A DNA stretch of 10,019 bases from Chthonomonadaceae bacterium (GTDB taxonomy: Bacteria; Armatimonadota; Chthonomonadetes; Chthonomonadales; Chthonomonadaceae), in assembly GCA_025355115.1 (NCBI GenBank), contig JANXLO010000305.1, positions 1 through 10,019 on the forward strand, read 5' to 3'. Made by a program: the position numbers and the translations under genes. The notes beneath the pieces are model-generated. The model was not told where the DNA came from. It did not search any database and was given only the letters and a program-made list of their open reading frames with translations. Positions 251-9,180 of the stretch are shown piece by piece (the stretch's first letter is position 1; the number at the start of each line of letters is the position of its first letter).

Positions 251-364
251 ATGGCCGAGACCGCTGAAAAATCTGTGCGGACGGGCAGTCCCCATCGAGG
301 AGTGCCAGGGATAGACCTTTGTCGATTCAAGAGACCGGTACACTGGTGTGGGGCATACCGATGA
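251..364 (+). CDS. Leader ORF of 37 codons, translationally coupled to the sigma factor
   Basis: The ORF starts at ATG 251, 6 nt after an almost ideal Shine-Dalgarno, and ends at TGA 362-364. That stop overlaps the ATG at 361 of the sigma factor in an ATGA junction, the classic arrangement for translational coupling. The peptide begins MAETAEKSVRTGSPHRG and ends HWCGAYR; it has no recognisable domain, signal peptide or membrane segment. It may be a leader whose translation delivers ribosomes to the otherwise poor start of the sigma gene. The alternative is a frameshift (natural or from sequencing) that cut the true N-terminus of the sigma factor away. Against this, the recognisable sigma homology begins only about 10 residues after the 361 start, so that start already gives a normal N-terminus. 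Confidence 0.45.
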   Translation: MAETAEKSVRTGSPHRGVPGIDLCRFKRPVHWCGAYR

Positions 365-996
365 ACGGGGGACGGCCGGTGACGACCGACGATGACAGCC
401 GATTCGTCGCCCGCTTTCTGCGCGGCGATGCATCCGGCTTCGACGCGCTGTTCCTCAAATACCAGGACTACGTCTATAACATTATCTATGGAATCGTGGG
501 CAACTCCGAGGAGGCCAGAGATTTAACTCAGGATGTGTTCCTGCAAGTCTATAAGTCCCTCGGTGGCTTTCGTCAGGGTGCCCGCTTTGCCACGTGGCTC
601 TACCGAATAGCGGTCAACAGGGGAGTCGACGCAGCTCGCGGCTCCCGTCGTTGGCGATTCCTCCCGCTGCTGGACGAGCCTTCCATACTCAACAGAGCAG
701 CGGACCCTGAAGGGGAGCCGGAGTACGCATTCGAGCGTACCATGGAGCGGGAGTCGGTGCAGAAAGTGCTCATGCTCTGCCCTGTTGCGGGCCGCGACAT
801 CCTCGTGCTCCGCTACTATCAAGGGCTGTCTGTTGAGGAGATCGCGGAGACGCTCGGTTGTTCTGTAGCTGCCGCTAAAGTACGCCTCCATCGCGCACGT
901 CTGCTCTTCAAGGACAAATATACGGCTGCCTGTGGATTGGATCCTTCGGACACGCACAGAAAGGAGCAGCACGATGCAGCGAAACCATCGCTCTAG
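361..996 (+). CDS. ECF-type RNA polymerase sigma factor
   Basis: This encodes a 211-residue sigma-70 family factor of the extracytoplasmic function group, which directs RNA polymerase to a small regulon. Region 2 spans about residues 12-92: it opens with DDSRFVARFLRGD and includes the core-binding and -10 helices with DLTQDVFLQVYKSL and FATWLYRIAVNR. A short linker follows, then region 4 at about 132-184, with the helix-turn-helix GLSVEEIAETLGCS ending in KVRLHRAR, for -35 recognition. Regions 1 and 3 are absent, as usual for ECF factors. I chose ATG 361 because it overlaps the stop of the leader ORF and gives a family-like N-terminus. TTG 319, with an AGGG 8 nt upstream, would add 14 residues and cannot be excluded. 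The 3' end overlaps the anti-sigma gene by 23 nt, so the two are probably made in a fixed ratio. Confidence 0.93.
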   Translation: MNGGRPVTTDDDSRFVARFLRGDASGFDALFLKYQDYVYNIIYGIVGNSEEARDLTQDVFLQVYKSLGGFRQGARFATWLYRIAVNRGVDAARGSRRWRFLPLLDEPSILNRAADPEGEPEYAFERTMERESVQKVLMLCPVAGRDILVLRYYQGLSVEEIAETLGCSVAAAKVRLHRARLLFKDKYTAACGLDPSDTHRKEQHDAAKPSL

Positions 997-1945
997 TTCA
1001 AATAGTTTTTCCGCTCCAGACTGTCAGGCGGTTCTAGCCGTGGAGTGGGCCTATGTGGACGGCTCGCTGCCGTCACAGGAGCATGCTGCGGTGCAGGCTC
1101 ATCTCGACAACTGCAGCGCCTGTCGCGCCGAGATCGACCATTGCCGCTCGCTGGAGAGCGTCCTGCAGACTGCCGTTAAGGCCGTTCCTTCCCCCGGCGA
1201 TCTGCGGTCAGGGTTCTACTCCAGGCTGGCGAGGGACAGAGCCTCCTCACGCCGAAAACTGTGGGCGGCGGCACTGCCCGCCTTCGCGATCGGCTTGCTG
1301 ACGATCGGGTTGATCAGGCATGGAAACCACGGTCTTCCGGCGTCAAATGGGCCCAAGACGACGATCGCCGGATCGACAGCGGCGGTGCCTTACTCAACTA
1401 GCCGCACCGAGATCGCCTCGCTGGCCCCTGACAGATCACCGCATGTCGAGCAGCGAATCGTGCCCGGCCTTTCCAACGGGCAGGCAGAACGTCTACTCAC
1501 AAGGGCCGTTGTCGCACGAACGCCAATCCATTCTGCCGCCCGGCATCGCCGCAGCGATCCAAGGGGCGAACAGATCGCTCTGGGAAGTGCCAGGCATTTT
1601 TTAAGCCAGATCCTGCCATCCACAGCAGAATCGTTGAGGAAAAGAGATTTGACGTCCAGCATGAGCTTGGCGGAAGCGGAAGATAAGAGGGACTCACCCA
1701 CCCTCTCCCTGAAGATATCCGCCCTCTTCCCGAAGCAAACACAACGTGCGGAGTTGACGGCACAGAGTGCCCTGGATTTTCAGAACACGACACTGGCATC
1801 CGCCGGCCCGATTCAGCCCGCAACCGGAGTAAGTCTTCAGGTTGACGACGAAGTGCGCGGCTTCACCAACTCAACGCGCATAGTGGCTGGCGTCGATGCA
1901 CAGGACAGCGAAGGCACATTTCATATCGAAGCAGATGGCAACTGA
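974..1945 (+). CDS. Zinc-finger (zf-HC2) transmembrane anti-sigma factor
   Basis: This 323-residue protein should hold the adjacent ECF sigma factor inactive at the membrane. Residues about 16-58 form a zf-HC2/ZAS anti-sigma domain, with C17 and the zinc motif H43-x3-C47-x2-C50. A basic stretch (R93, R94, K95) precedes one transmembrane helix at about 96-114. The remaining ~210 residues would lie outside the inner membrane; they are Ser/Thr/Ala/Pro-rich and look low in structure, with no domain I recognise, and could be the target of a sensor protein or protease. The start is ATG 974, preceded by AAGGAG with 7-nt spacing; an upstream in-frame start at 932 lies within the sigma gene and lacks such a site. 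The overlap with the sigma gene supports their pairing. Identity as an anti-sigma factor is strong; the signal is unknown. Confidence 0.88.
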   Translation: MQRNHRSSSNSFSAPDCQAVLAVEWAYVDGSLPSQEHAAVQAHLDNCSACRAEIDHCRSLESVLQTAVKAVPSPGDLRSGFYSRLARDRASSRRKLWAAALPAFAIGLLTIGLIRHGNHGLPASNGPKTTIAGSTAAVPYSTSRTEIASLAPDRSPHVEQRIVPGLSNGQAERLLTRAVVARTPIHSAARHRRSDPRGEQIALGSARHFLSQILPSTAESLRKRDLTSSMSLAEAEDKRDSPTLSLKISALFPKQTQRAELTAQSALDFQNTTLASAGPIQPATGVSLQVDDEVRGFTNSTRIVAGVDAQDSEGTFHIEADGN

Positions 1946-4543: not shown

Positions 4544-4600
4544 TCGTCATGTTCCGGAGTGAACCTGAGTATGAGCAAGCGGCGATTAAGGAGCAGCAAG

Positions 4601-5578
4601 ATGAAGATCACAAGAGGCGTGGGGGTAATTTGTTCGGCGGCGCTGATTGGCCTTGCAGGCATCTGTTGGGGTGGACAGCGGACTTCGTCATCAGAGGGAA
4701 GACCGGCGTTGGGAATCGGAGCCGACTTGAACGGAAAGCGGGTCTTTCCGGCCGACAACCCCTGGAATCAGGACATCTCACGAATGCCTGTGGATCCGCG
4801 GTCGGACACCCTTGTCGCGAGCATTGGTCTTAACAAGCCACTGCATCCCGATTTCGGCACGACGTATAACGGTAACCCGAACGGGATTCCGTACACTGTT
4901 ATCTCAGGCGAGCAAGCCAAAATCCGCGTTTCCGTCAAGTTCCAGTATGTTGATGAGAGCGATGCCGGCCCGTACCCCATTCCGCCCAACGCGCCGATCG
5001 AGGGCGGGCCGAAATCGAACGGAGACCGGCATCTGCTTGTGCTGGATCGAGACAACTGGCTCCTCTATGAGCTGTTCTCCTCCTACCCAGAAGGCAAAGG
5101 ATGGAGGGCAGGCTCGGGGGCGATTTTCGATCTGAAGACCAACCGGGAGCGACCCTCAGGATGGACATCGGCGGATGCAGCGGGGCTCCCGATATTTCCG
5201 GGGCTTGTGAGATATGAGGAGGCCGTGGGGCGGAGGGTGATAGATCATGCGCTGCGATTTACGTGCGTCAAATCACGTCATGCCTTCGTGCCGCCCGCCC
5301 GCCACTTCGCCAGCAGATCGACGGATTCTAGCCTGCCGCCGATGGGAATGCGAGTACGCCTGAAGGCATCGATAGACATTGCGAGCTTCCCGCAGAGTGT
5401 TCGGCCCGTGCTCAAAGCGCTTCAGAAGTACGGCATGATACTCGCTGACAACGGCTCCGATTGGTTTCTAAGCGGCTCTCCTGACCCACGCTGGAACGAC
5501 GACGAGCTAAACACGATGAAGCGGCTGAAAGGCCATGATTTCGAGGTCGTTCAGATGGGCGAGATGGTCACAAAATAG
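4601..5578 (+). CDS. Secreted protein of unknown function, conserved family
   Basis: This is a 325-residue protein with a Sec-type signal peptide (K2, R5, then a hydrophobic core about 7-23). The C22 region (LAGICWG) is not a good lipobox, so a lipoprotein is unlikely. The mature part is one continuous domain with striking conserved-looking blocks: FPADNPWNQDIS (49-60), LHPDFGT (81-87), GPYPIPPNAPIEGG (123-136), GDRHLLVLDRDNW (141-153), GSGAIFDL (171-178), GWTSADAAGLPIFPGLVRYEE (187-207, quoted in part) and ADNGSDWF (282-289). From memory, proteins with these same blocks recur as secreted hypothetical proteins in soil bacteria; I know no assigned function. The many Trp, Asp, His and Gly residues would suit a carbohydrate-active or binding domain, but that is a guess. 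ATG 4601 has AAGGAG at 7-nt spacing, nearly identical to the anti-sigma start region; ATG 4571 would add a more basic N-terminus (MSKRRLRSSK). It is the last gene before the convergent block. Confidence 0.8.
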   Translation: MKITRGVGVICSAALIGLAGICWGGQRTSSSEGRPALGIGADLNGKRVFPADNPWNQDISRMPVDPRSDTLVASIGLNKPLHPDFGTTYNGNPNGIPYTVISGEQAKIRVSVKFQYVDESDAGPYPIPPNAPIEGGPKSNGDRHLLVLDRDNWLLYELFSSYPEGKGWRAGSGAIFDLKTNRERPSGWTSADAAGLPIFPGLVRYEEAVGRRVIDHALRFTCVKSRHAFVPPARHFASRSTDSSLPPMGMRVRLKASIDIASFPQSVRPVLKALQKYGMILADNGSDWFLSGSPDPRWNDDELNTMKRLKGHDFEVVQMGEMVTK

Positions 5579-5618: not shown

Positions 5619-6914
5619 CTAGTCAACGGACTGCAGGGCGCGGGCTGCGATGTCGCGACGGAAGGACATGCCCTCGAAATGAAGGCGATCCAATCCTTCA
5701 TAGGCGCGAGCCACGGCGGCGCGAAGGTCATCAGCTAGTCCGGTCACGCTCAGCACTCTACCGCCATCCGTCACTGTTCTGCCATCTTCGAGCCTCGTGC
5801 CGCCATGAAAGACGAGACAATCCTCCTGACCGACGAACAACTCCAGTCCTGAGATAACCTTGCCGATCTCGTACTCTCCAGGGTAGCCTTTAGACACCGC
5901 TGTGACGGAGGCGGAGGCTCCCCCGCGCCAACGTACCTCCTGCTTATCGAGCGTGCAGTCGGTCACGCCCATCAGAAGCGGCACCAGGTCGCTCTCCAAC
6001 AGCGGAAGCACTGCCTGCGTCTCAGGATCCCCCAACCGACAGTTGAATTCAATGCATTTTGGCCCGTCCGCCGTGACGATGATCCCGGCATAGAGGACGC
6101 CTCGATAGGGAATCCCCAGTTCACGAACCGCCCGGACAGCAGGGCGGAGAATGCGCTCCATCACCACGCTCGCCGTGTCCTCTGGGATGCCTGGAACGGG
6201 AGAGTACGCTCCCATCCCGCCCGTGTTCGGGCCGGTATCGCCTTCCCCTACTCGCTTATGATCCTGTGACGGGACGAGCGGAATGATCGTCTCGCCGTCC
6301 GTAATTGCCATGATGGAAGTCTCTTCGCCGTAGAGCCGCTCCTCGATGACCACGACGTCGCCAGCGGCTCCGAAGACGCGCTCTCCCATTATCCGCAACA
6401 GCCCCGCCTCCGCCTCCGCCTGGCTACCCGCGACGATCACGCCTTTGCCTGCCGCTATCCCATCCGCCTTTATGACGATGCCGACCTCGGGGCCGTTCTG
6501 CGTGTAGTAGGCCCGCACAATTGCCTGCGCCTCCGCCAGAGAGCGACACGTCCAGTAGGCTGCTGTTGGGATGCCTGCCGCCTGCATCAGCTCCTTCGCG
6601 AAGGTTTTGCTGCCCTCCAGCCGTGCGGGATCTGTAGAAGGGCCGAAGATGGGCAGGCCGCGCGCCTCGAAGGCGTCCACTATCCCGGCGATGAGCGGAG
6701 CCTCTGGCCCGACTACAGTAAGACCAATCCTGTTGCGTTCGGCAAAGTCAACTAAACCCGCAATTTCCGTCGCCTGAATCGGAACGCACTCCGCAAGCTG
6801 CGCGATGCCCGCATTGCCCGGCGCGCAGAATATTTTGTCGACCAGAGGACTCTTCGCGATTTTCCATGCCAGCGCATGCTCTCGCCCGCCGCCTCCCACC
6901 ACCAGTACGCGCAT
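5619..6914 (-). CDS. purD: Phosphoribosylamine--glycine ligase (GAR synthetase)
   Basis: This enzyme carries out the second step of de novo purine synthesis: phosphoribosylamine + glycine + ATP gives glycinamide ribonucleotide. The 431-residue length matches the family (about 420-430). Visible landmarks are the N-terminal nucleotide-fold loop VVGGGGREHALAW (5-17), GPEAPLIAGIVD (69-80), the ATP-grasp lysine region IVIKADGIAAGKGVIVA (146-162), the family hallmark PSQDHKRVGEGDTGPNTGGMG (215-235, quoted in part) and the metal-binding EFNCRLGDPETQ (289-300). The start is ATG 6914, with GGGAG about 8 nt upstream; an upstream in-frame extension from 6989 runs into dnaB and precedes the conserved N-terminus, so it is rejected. 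It lies 19 nt downstream of dnaB and is probably co-transcribed with it. It is single-domain, not fused to other purine enzymes. Confidence 0.98.
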   Translation of the reverse strand: MRVLVVGGGGREHALAWKIAKSPLVDKIFCAPGNAGIAQLAECVPIQATEIAGLVDFAERNRIGLTVVGPEAPLIAGIVDAFEARGLPIFGPSTDPARLEGSKTFAKELMQAAGIPTAAYWTCRSLAEAQAIVRAYYTQNGPEVGIVIKADGIAAGKGVIVAGSQAEAEAGLLRIMGERVFGAAGDVVVIEERLYGEETSIMAITDGETIIPLVPSQDHKRVGEGDTGPNTGGMGAYSPVPGIPEDTASVVMERILRPAVRAVRELGIPYRGVLYAGIIVTADGPKCIEFNCRLGDPETQAVLPLLESDLVPLLMGVTDCTLDKQEVRWRGGASASVTAVSKGYPGEYEIGKVISGLELFVGQEDCLVFHGGTRLEDGRTVTDGGRVLSVTGLADDLRAAVARAYEGLDRLHFEGMSFRRDIAARALQSVD

Positions 6915-6933
6915 CTCTACTCTCCCTCTTCGT

Positions 6934-9180
6934 CTACTCCCTATCGCCATCGTCGTAGTATCCGGGTGCAAGGTTTTCAAATCGGGCATAGTGCGGCAGG
7001 AAGCCGACTTTGACCGGGCCGGTCGGGCCGTTTCGCTGCTTGGCGATAATAAGCTCCGCTACCTCGAGCTTCTCGCGGTCTCGATCCTGCCAGTCTCGTC
7101 CTTGCTGCTCCCTATCGTCCTCCGCCGAAGTCGCCTCTTTCATCTTGTAGTAGGCTTCGCGGTAGATGAACATTACGATGTCCGCCTCCGCCTCGATTGC
7201 GCCGGATTCACGCAGATCGGAGAGCATCGGGCGCTTGTCAGGACGGGATTCAACGGCGCGGCTAAGCTGCGACAGTGCGATCACAGGAACTTCCAGCTCA
7301 CGGGCCATCTGCTTGGTGGACCTGGTGATCTCGGAGATCTCCTGGTTGCGGTTTTCGGTGCGCTTGTGAGAACGCATCAGCTGGAGGTAGTCGATGACCA
7401 CCATGCCCAGCCCCTTCTGCTCGGCTTTGAGACGGCGGCATTTGGCGCGTATCTCTAAGACGGAGATATCGGGCGAGTCGTCGATGAATATTGGCGCTTC
7501 CGCGAGACGCTGAATTCCCTCCCCCACCCTCTGCCAGTCATCGCTCTGCAGAAACCCCGTTCGCAGTTTGTGGGCGTCCACTTTCGACTCGGAGCAGATC
7601 ATGCGCGTCACCAACTGCTCCGCGGACATCTCCAAGCTGAAGATCGCCACCGGCAGCTTCTCGTTGAGGGCGACATATTGCGCCACCTGCACCGAGAGAG
7701 CGGTATTGTGCACGCAGACATCCTGTGCGATGAAATTGGCTCCGTCCGGCACGGTCAAATCGTAAACCTGATGAATGCCCGTCGGCTCGATGGCGGTGAT
7801 CTCATCCCAATAGATATCGCTGCCTTCGGTCTCCTGATGCTTTTCGCTCGGACAAAGACTCTCGTCAGCACCGAGCCAAGTTAGAGAGCCCGTTTCACTT
7901 GGCTGCCCAATTTGACGAATGAACTCTGTGACCGACCGCGGCTCATTTATATCGACGAGGCAACGGCCTCTGCTTTCGCGCGTTACTTTTGCGACGATGC
8001 CGAGTCGCGTCAGTCCGTGCAGAATGTCCGTCGCCGCCTCTGCCCGGGTCTCCTCGAACTCGATGCTGACAGAGCCGTCCGGGCAACGTATCGAGCGGCC
8101 TGAACCGAGAAGCGAGCGTAGCGACGCTGTTAGCCTCGAAAGGCCTTCATGCCAGATGATTGCTGAAGGCCGTGTGATTCCCGGGGAATATTGATGGCGC
8201 TGACGTGGGATTTCGGGACTGAAGGAGGGAAGAGTGCGGGGAACGCCGATTTTGTCGCCTGCCTCGAGACAGTGCAGCGGCTTCCAGCCCTCCTGTGTGA
8301 GAAACGGATGGTGGCCAGTGACCTCCACGTTGCGGCCAGTGTCCGTAGTGACGCGGAAGCAGGGCTTTTTGCCGCTGTCAATCCAGTCGGCCACTGCCGT
8401 CCTGCGCACAGTCCCCGACATCGAGACGCCCCAGACCTCAGGAAGTTTAATTCTGACGCACTCGTCTATGGTTCGACGCTCACCGGTTCGGGGATCGACG
8501 ATGAGTGTGTCCCACTTGACGCATTTGCCCATACTCGGTCGAGCAGCGACAATGATGAGATCGGAAGGCTGGAAGCCTGCGGTCTTGTAGTTCAGGTCAT
8601 CGAAGGGGGTTTTGCGGCCCGTAGGCGCACCGCGGTTGGCGTCCAGGCTGTCGAGGCGGTCGAGCTCCTTGTCCAACAAGGGCCGCAGGGGCTTGAAGAA
8701 CTGCCCGGCGCGGCGGCGGCCGATCTCGAAGACAATCTGCTCGGCTCTGTCCACGACCTCGCTGATGTTGTTGAACTCCGAGTATGCAAGGCCCTGCACT
8801 TGAGTTCCGGCATCGAGGAGGCGGCGGAGAATGGATTTCTCTTCAACCAGACGGGCGTAATACTCGATGTTGGCGGCGGTGGAGGGCGCCTCCATGAGGT
8901 TCTGGAGGTAGATCAGCCCGCCGACCGAATCGTACTGGCCGCGGGAGCGGAGCTCATCGGTGAGGGTGATGAGGTCCACAGGCTCATCCCGTTGGGTGAG
9001 AGCCAACATGCCCTCGAAAATGTGGCGATGGGCGTCGCGGTAGAAGTCCTCGGGGCGCAGCAGTTCGGACCCGCGCTCAACCGCAGGGCGCTCGATTAGC
9101 ATCGAACCCAGAACAGCCTGCTCCGCTTCGAGGTTCTGCGGAGGAACACGATCAAACGAAGCCGGATAGTCCGATGCCAC
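6934..9180 (-). CDS. dnaB: Replicative DNA helicase DnaB, intein-containing precursor
   Basis: DnaB is the hexameric 5'-3' helicase that unwinds DNA at the replication fork. The precursor has 748 residues; removing the 273-residue intein (220-492) leaves 475, close to the usual ~470. The N-terminal domain starts with PPQNLEAEQAVLGSML (13-28), followed by the linker helix region (about 155-185) and the RecA-type ATPase. Its Walker A, ARPSMGK-T, is split by the intein between K219 and T493. Walker B is MVVIDYLQLM (593-602); SLEMSAEQLVTRM (515-527), RPMLSDLRESG (650-660) and IIAKQRNGPTG (711-721) are further helicase motifs. A charged insert at about 680-703 is longer than in E. coli DnaB. The start is GTG 9180 with GGAGGG 7 nt upstream. 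Gene order rplI-dnaB is common in bacteria; purD follows after 19 nt. Function depends on splicing. Confidence 0.97.
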   Translation of the reverse strand: MASDYPASFDRVPPQNLEAEQAVLGSMLIERPAVERGSELLRPEDFYRDAHRHIFEGMLALTQRDEPVDLITLTDELRSRGQYDSVGGLIYLQNLMEAPSTAANIEYYARLVEEKSILRRLLDAGTQVQGLAYSEFNNISEVVDRAEQIVFEIGRRRAGQFFKPLRPLLDKELDRLDSLDANRGAPTGRKTPFDDLNYKTAGFQPSDLIIVAARPSMGKCVKWDTLIVDPRTGERRTIDECVRIKLPEVWGVSMSGTVRRTAVADWIDSGKKPCFRVTTDTGRNVEVTGHHPFLTQEGWKPLHCLEAGDKIGVPRTLPSFSPEIPRQRHQYSPGITRPSAIIWHEGLSRLTASLRSLLGSGRSIRCPDGSVSIEFEETRAEAATDILHGLTRLGIVAKVTRESRGRCLVDINEPRSVTEFIRQIGQPSETGSLTWLGADESLCPSEKHQETEGSDIYWDEITAIEPTGIHQVYDLTVPDGANFIAQDVCVHNTALSVQVAQYVALNEKLPVAIFSLEMSAEQLVTRMICSESKVDAHKLRTGFLQSDDWQRVGEGIQRLAEAPIFIDDSPDISVLEIRAKCRRLKAEQKGLGMVVIDYLQLMRSHKRTENRNQEISEITRSTKQMARELEVPVIALSQLSRAVESRPDKRPMLSDLRESGAIEAEADIVMFIYREAYYKMKEATSAEDDREQQGRDWQDRDREKLEVAELIIAKQRNGPTGPVKVGFLPHYARFENLAPGYYDDGDRE
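7705..8523 (-). mobile_element. DnaB intein in the P-loop (273 residues)
   Basis: This is an in-frame protein-splicing element, translated inside DnaB and expected to excise itself while joining K219 to T493. Block A starts with catalytic C1 (CVKWDTLIVDPRTGE). Block B carries the T69-x-x-H72 motif in EVTGHHPFL. Block F is VYDLTVPDGANFIAQD (253-268). Block G ends in V-H272-N273, followed by Thr as the +1 nucleophile. All class 1 splicing residues are therefore present. About 135 residues between blocks B and F exceed a mini-intein and resemble half of a LAGLIDADG endonuclease without an intact acidic motif. The other well-known DnaB insertion point, after DLRESG (as in the Synechocystis DnaB intein), is empty here. 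P-loop inteins are known in mycobacterial DnaB. Boundaries rest on the clean reconstruction of PSMGKTALS across the junction. Confidence 0.96.
7903..8142 (-). pseudogene. Decayed LAGLIDADG-like endonuclease segment within the intein
   Basis: Intein residues about 128-207 run LSRLTASLRSLLGSGRSI, then DGSVSIEFEE, DILHGLTRLGI and a closing SVTEFIRQIG. The order (motif helix, strand, helix with 'L..LGI', strand, helix) matches one half of a LAGLIDADG domain. At the place of the catalytic 'L-x-G-D-G' the sequence reads LLGSGRS, so the acidic residue appears lost, and no second repeat is visible. The element would therefore be splicing-competent but unable to home. The reading frame is intact because frameshifts would kill dnaB. 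The assignment is by pattern only. Confidence 0.5.

Follow-up and report, generated by a model that had tools for sequence, protein, structure and literature searches.

A putative class 1 intein with a decaying homing endonuclease splits the P-loop of DnaB in a Chthonomonadaceae bacterium

In the window analysed here (10,019 nucleotides of contig JANXLO010000305.1 from a Chthonomonadaceae bacterium), dnaB lies on the reverse strand, downstream of the gene for ribosomal protein L9 and upstream of purD. Its open reading frame (9180..6934, reverse strand) encodes a precursor of 748 amino acids, and the translation contains an insert of 273 residues (residues 220–492; 7705–8523, reverse strand) that splits the Walker A motif between lysine and threonine, giving RPSMGK/C...HN/TALS. 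Profile matches and translation delimit an N-extein of 219 amino acids (8524–9180, reverse strand), which has a GTG start and ends in the Walker A residues RPSMGK (8524–8541). The C-extein (6934–7704, reverse strand), delimited by PF03796 and translation, comprises 256 amino acids and the stop codon, with the +1 threonine at 7702–7704. Without the insert, the exteins add up to a DnaB of 475 amino acids. A previous sequence-only reading of this DNA had proposed an intein with exactly these borders and a 475-residue DnaB encoded by its flanks, both of which are borne out by the translation. As listed, the purD open reading frame (5619–6989, reverse strand) overlaps the end of dnaB; its GARS_N domain starts at residue 26 (MRVLVVGGGG), so the true purD start is probably there and an overlap with dnaB is not required. 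Elsewhere in the window, 319–1945 (forward strand) encodes an ECF sigma factor and then a zinc-finger anti-sigma-type protein (zf-HC2), with a 65-base overlap as listed, and a 339-amino-acid open reading frame at 4559–5578 (forward strand) has a signal-peptide-like start by eye and no Pfam or NCBIfam match at an E-value of 0.001.

The insert (the query in the comparisons below) scored above the cut-offs of three intein profiles, which agrees with the profile search that the earlier reading had put forward as a check: Pfam Intein_splicing (PF14890; E = 9e-20, 71.5 bits versus a cut-off of 35.8), NCBIfam intein_Nterm (TIGR01445; 32.6 versus 24.5 bits) and NCBIfam intein_Cterm (TIGR01443; 24.6 versus 15.6 bits). 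Solved DnaB inteins in the PDB matched it at E-values of 5.5e-21 to 2e-19 in a single-sequence search. Within the gene, to which this comparison is confined, the GC content at third codon positions is 0.648 in the intein versus 0.767 and 0.763 in the exteins. Together with translation and the DnaB proteins of relatives, these matches define the 273-residue intein. Its splicing domain, delimited by TIGR01445, TIGR01443 and column conservation, consists of an N-terminal part (residues 1–100; 8224–8523, reverse strand) that includes Cys1 (8521–8523) and the block B TxxH motif from Thr69 to His72 (8308–8319), and a C-terminal part (residues 235–273; 7705–7821, reverse strand) that includes Asp255 (7759–7761), located in the block F sequence VYDLTV, and the terminal His272–Asn273 (7705–7710). 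Each class 1 splicing residue named earlier (Cys1, Thr69 and His72, His272, Asn273 and the +1 Thr) was found in its place. By contrast, the features of class 3 inteins are missing: Cys1 is present, and Phe74, Asp255 and Val271 occupy the positions of the class 3 residues Trp, Cys and Thr, respectively, by our own placing of these positions (blocks B, F and G) from PMC6195587 and PMC7664689. Judging from its residues, the insert belongs to the class 1 inteins and occupies the established P-loop site of DnaB (site b). From these residues, the relatives described below and the known class 1 mechanism, we infer that Cys1 would attack the Lys–Cys bond, the N-extein would pass to Thr+1, and Asn273 would cyclise, joining the 475-residue helicase and restoring GKT.

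Most relatives of the intein are considerably longer. From the best 120 of 1899 proteins we cut 92 inteins, keeping those in which both borders matched the pattern and the length was 250–470 amino acids; 71 of the 92 comprise 406–426 amino acids and one comprises 460. The full-length relatives have two LAGLIDADG motifs (for example, LAYFIAEGG and FLRVLMSCDG) and an additional stretch ahead of the C-terminal part of the splicing domain, and rows of at least 400 amino acids (n = 78) have Glu at the first catalytic position in 73 cases and Asp at the second in 75. The query has neither. Alignments and the decay comparisons below assign its residues 101–234 (7822–8223, reverse strand) to a remnant of a LAGLIDADG homing endonuclease that has lost its first motif and most of the C-terminal stretch. 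The second motif is degenerate (residues 129–143; 8095–8139, reverse strand): it reads LRSLLGSGR, with Gly142 replacing the catalytic Asp. An active homing intein of this family carries two motifs with catalytic acidic residues, and a mini-intein has no endonuclease domain; the query lacks the former and, with about 134 remnant residues left, is not the latter. By its sequence, it would not be a full mobile intein, and the remnant cannot be expected to cut DNA. This broken endonuclease, which is absent from the sequence-only reading, is the most informative feature of the locus.

Known systems place these features in context. Class 1 DnaB P-loop inteins of Ktedonobacterales (P0003; 52% identity across 47% of the intein), Rubrobacter (P0129; 65% identical over 98% of the first 103 residues) and a Rubrobacteraceae metagenome-assembled genome (L035) share the insertion site and splicing residues of the query, but they are 419–423 amino acids long as opposed to 273, and L035 and the others aligned keep both LAGLIDADG motifs where the query has a broken remnant. 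The best matches among solved structures, the DnaB mini-inteins 1mi8 and 4o1r (E = 2.5e-20 and 2e-19 in the single-sequence search, approximately 1e-34 with a profile), are chains of 142–158 amino acids with Val or Leu in the column of the query's Cys55. We take these to be the Ssp and Npu DnaB mini-inteins, which would be inserted at a site different from that of the query. The PhoVMA intein, as described in PMC8966425, also contains a degenerate LAGLIDADG domain without catalytic residues; however, it resides in an archaeal VMA protein and retains the nuclease architecture with a truncated second motif, whereas in the query it is the first motif that is gone.

The closest counterpart came from a second search in which only the first 103 residues of the intein were scored. 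This search yielded 41 proteins, and 33 inteins were cut from the 36 that were new. One of them, P0121, is a DnaB of 741 amino acids with a similarly reduced intein of 266 amino acids. In a tree of 121 splicing domains, built after 11 identical or near-identical rows had been removed, the inteins of P0121 and the query are sisters (support 100/98). This tree draws on few columns, leaves 46 of 118 inner branches open and has bootstraps that did not settle; an earlier tree without P0121 gave no resolved place for the query intein. The exteins of the two proteins are 96.0% identical over 475 amino acids, whereas the inteins are only 55.9% identical over 254 aligned residues, and the two parts of the intein have decayed unequally, with 77.1% identity in the splicing domain and 28.9% in the middle, which contains the remnant. 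The middle parts are still homologous (local score of 75 versus a maximum of 54 in 500 shuffles). P0121 differs from the query in keeping a trace near the first motif, and the deletion ends of the two inteins differ, which leaves one shared reduction unproved.

Similar differences were found in other reduced inteins. Among pairs with core-extein identities of 85–98.5%, taken with a C-extein prefilter and tallied without mixed and intermediate pairs, the median excess of splicing-domain identity over middle identity was 2.7 points for 115 pairs of full-length inteins (at least 400 amino acids; range −7.2 to 17.0), which include Rubrobacter near-copies, and 26.8 points for nine pairs of reduced inteins (less than 320 amino acids; range 17.1 to 48.2), two of which are repeats because the P0030 and P0035 inteins are identical; the two ranges are barely non-overlapping, and members are shared between pairs. 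We considered selection on the remnant as a whole and rejected it: between the query and P0121, formerly conserved nuclease columns (conservation taken from 88 full-length rows) are identical at 12 of 38 positions and variable columns at 11 of 50 (p = 0.22), so conserved columns decay as fast as variable ones. The splicing domain of this pair has itself changed rapidly. Its 77.1% identity accompanies a core-extein identity of 97.3%, whereas 38 full-length pairs at 96–98.5% have a median of 85.4%, with only 3 of the 38 at or below 77.1%; a similar picture would arise if splicing were less constrained or if a related intein had replaced this one. The unequal decay matches the degeneration stage of the homing cycle described in PMC8966425. 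A different pattern was seen in P0137, P0139 and P0140, the core exteins of which are 100% identical: the splicing domain of P0137 is 92.1% identical to those of the other two and its middle is 99.3% identical to that of P0140, a local block of differences that perhaps reflects recombination between inteins or an assembly mix.

The host genome (G000; 3.66 Mb in 774 contigs) is 73.85% complete and contains one DnaB and one match to the intein profiles; at this completeness, a second, intein-free DnaB is possible. Another match to the DnaB_C profile, on contig C505, looks RadA-like by its sequence motifs. Within the Chthonomonadaceae, the intein is present in 1 of 17 genomes. DnaB is uninterrupted at the insertion point in all 16 others, as the comparison with relatives suggested by the sequence-only reading had anticipated; GKT was seen directly in 14 of them, and in G001 and G008 an intact P-loop was deduced from abutting match coordinates. 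Across the phylum, 24 of 291 genomes contain some match to the intein, many of them weak and many in other proteins; P-loop DnaB inteins were read in G042, G034, G048 and G066, as was the start of one in G074. The DnaB frames L055 (in G066) and L036 (in G048) each have more than one intein match, one in the P-loop and one further on, and the P-loop intein of G066 comprises 235 amino acids. Relatives with 73–76% extein identity (P0047, P0073 and P0137/P0139/P0140) carry P-loop inteins of 408, 411 and 287–289 amino acids, respectively, so empty, full-length and reduced states are found among probable close relatives of the host. Among phages, 4 of 50,697 records matched at an E-value of 1e-5, as did 3 of 72,556 plasmid records; none of these matches spanned 80% of the query in one place, and neither collection pointed to a vehicle. 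The papers found on inteins in Armatimonadota, as judged from titles and the openings of abstracts, included nothing about such an intein.

Shortening appears repeatedly among these inteins. In 14 of the 121 rows the intein is below 320 amino acids, and parsimony on the tree needs nine state changes, a count that gives no direction; regain of a lost nuclease is unlikely. L055 (235 amino acids) and L051 (415 amino acids) are sisters from two genomes of one genus. We aligned 13 reduced inteins (P0139 was left out as a near copy of P0137), all of which retain some of the second half of the nuclease, with W124, A164, H169 and R173 identical in all 13 and positions 124, 164, 169, 173 and 188 each holding one residue in all 12 inteins other than the query. 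This alignment and a column test point to a small core (residues 163–177; 7993–8037, reverse strand) that tends to stay in shortened inteins, which we regard as a lead. One explanation is that the half-nuclease has been absorbed into the splicing machine, with a core that folding or splicing requires and that sets a lower size limit. Columns kept by the other 11 reduced inteins are more often identical between the query and P0121 than the rest at all three thresholds (9/16 versus 14/73, p = 0.004; 6/9 versus 17/80, p = 0.008; 4/5 versus 19/84, p = 0.015), and splicing depends on the nuclease domain in some inteins according to PMC8966425, which, however, also describes a degenerate intein that spliced after loss of this domain. 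The numbers are small, the columns were picked after inspection, and the first search for relatives ranked proteins on a query that included the remnant, which biases the set towards its retention. Moreover, by our count the query itself differs at 9 of the 18 columns that the other reduced inteins keep best, and formerly conserved nuclease columns are better kept in only two of eight pairs (p = 0.023 and 0.0035), not in the other five or in the query and P0121. We therefore consider a role for the half-nuclease possible but doubtful.

The sequence-only reading had suggested that splicing could gate replication, citing the P-loop DnaB inteins of mycobacteria, and this step is weak. In PMC6195587, Mycobacterium smegmatis DnaBi1 resembles the query in occupying site b of the DnaB P-loop, in having the Mg-coordinating Ser/Thr as its +1 residue and in having no working nuclease. 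However, it is a class 3 intein with a block F nucleophile (Cys118), no nucleophile at position 1 and Ser+1, whereas the query has the Cys1 and Thr+1 of class 1; the mechanism of the mycobacterial stress-responsive intein thus does not carry over. Oxidation of DnaBi1 forms a disulfide between Cys118 and Cys48, a residue termed non-conserved, and blocks splicing; DnaBi2, a class 1 intein at site a of the same protein, is unresponsive (PMC6195587). DnaBi1 is also inhibited by zinc, according to PMC7360933. The query has a candidate counterpart of Cys48 in Cys55 (8359–8361, reverse strand), which is shared by most of the class 1 P-loop relatives compared (86 of 91 others; 100 of the 121 rows in the larger set). 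Like Cys48 relative to Asp62 in M. smegmatis, it precedes the block B Thr by 14 residues. A profile of eight inteins matched 49 sequences, and DnaBi1 (6bs8) was not among them, so the equivalence of Cys55 and Cys48 is one of residue counts, and we treat it as a lead. The same column holds Val in four and Leu in one of five solved DnaB-intein chains, and Val, Ala or Thr in 21 of the 121 rows, including all four other Armatimonadota-type site-b inteins of the tree (L036, L051, L052 and L055). It is conceivable that oxidation or metal stress would halt splicing, leave the P-loop broken and hold back replication. Unspliced DnaB should not hydrolyse ATP with its P-loop interrupted, and an intein in the P-loop of RadA disrupts its ATPase function (work cited by PMC6195587); Cys1 would be the nucleophile, and the five cysteines of the splicing domain (residues 1, 22, 55, 85 and 270) are all present in P0121, although keeping five of five is unremarkable at 77% identity. 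Given the different class of the precedent and the replacements of Cys55, such a conditional switch seems unlikely. Less probable still is a thiol switch shared by class 1 and class 3 P-loop DnaB inteins, in which Cys55, at the Cys48 position, would be oxidised onto Cys1 and leave the helicase without ATP, the nuclease-dead intein being retained for this function as well as for the difficulty of removing it. The insert might instead have ceased to splice, the cell using another helicase and the frame being a pseudogene in the making. The rapid change of the intein and the incompleteness of the host genome are compatible with this, but the query and P0121 have each retained the catalytic residues and the two splice borders while the adjoining remnant is down to 29% identity, and exteins that are 96% identical place DnaB under strong constraint, making a pseudogene extremely improbable.

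Very probably, then, the insert is a class 1, cis-splicing P-loop (site b) intein in the only DnaB found, derived from an ancestor whose LAGLIDADG endonuclease had two motifs, and with a nuclease that is now dead and decaying. Loss of the first motif, the C-terminal stretch and the second catalytic residue should have ended homing. The intein would since have been passed on by inheritance, because no functional DnaB can form unless it splices, with the nuclease remnant decaying meanwhile; this would correspond to a late stage of the known homing cycle. It is an ordinary and well-supported intein of class 1 in the DnaB P-loop, at a late, nuclease-dead stage, and it adds one further member to the P-loop DnaB inteins. 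It also carries a warning, as sharing an insertion site is no ground for extending the redox result for the class 3 mycobacterial intein to class 1 inteins. The pair formed with P0121 separates the part of the intein that is kept, for splicing, from the part that is not, for homing. Together with their relatives, these inteins show the homing cycle at a single site as a natural series, with empty, full-length and decaying states in hosts whose DnaB exteins are 67–96% identical to those of the query.
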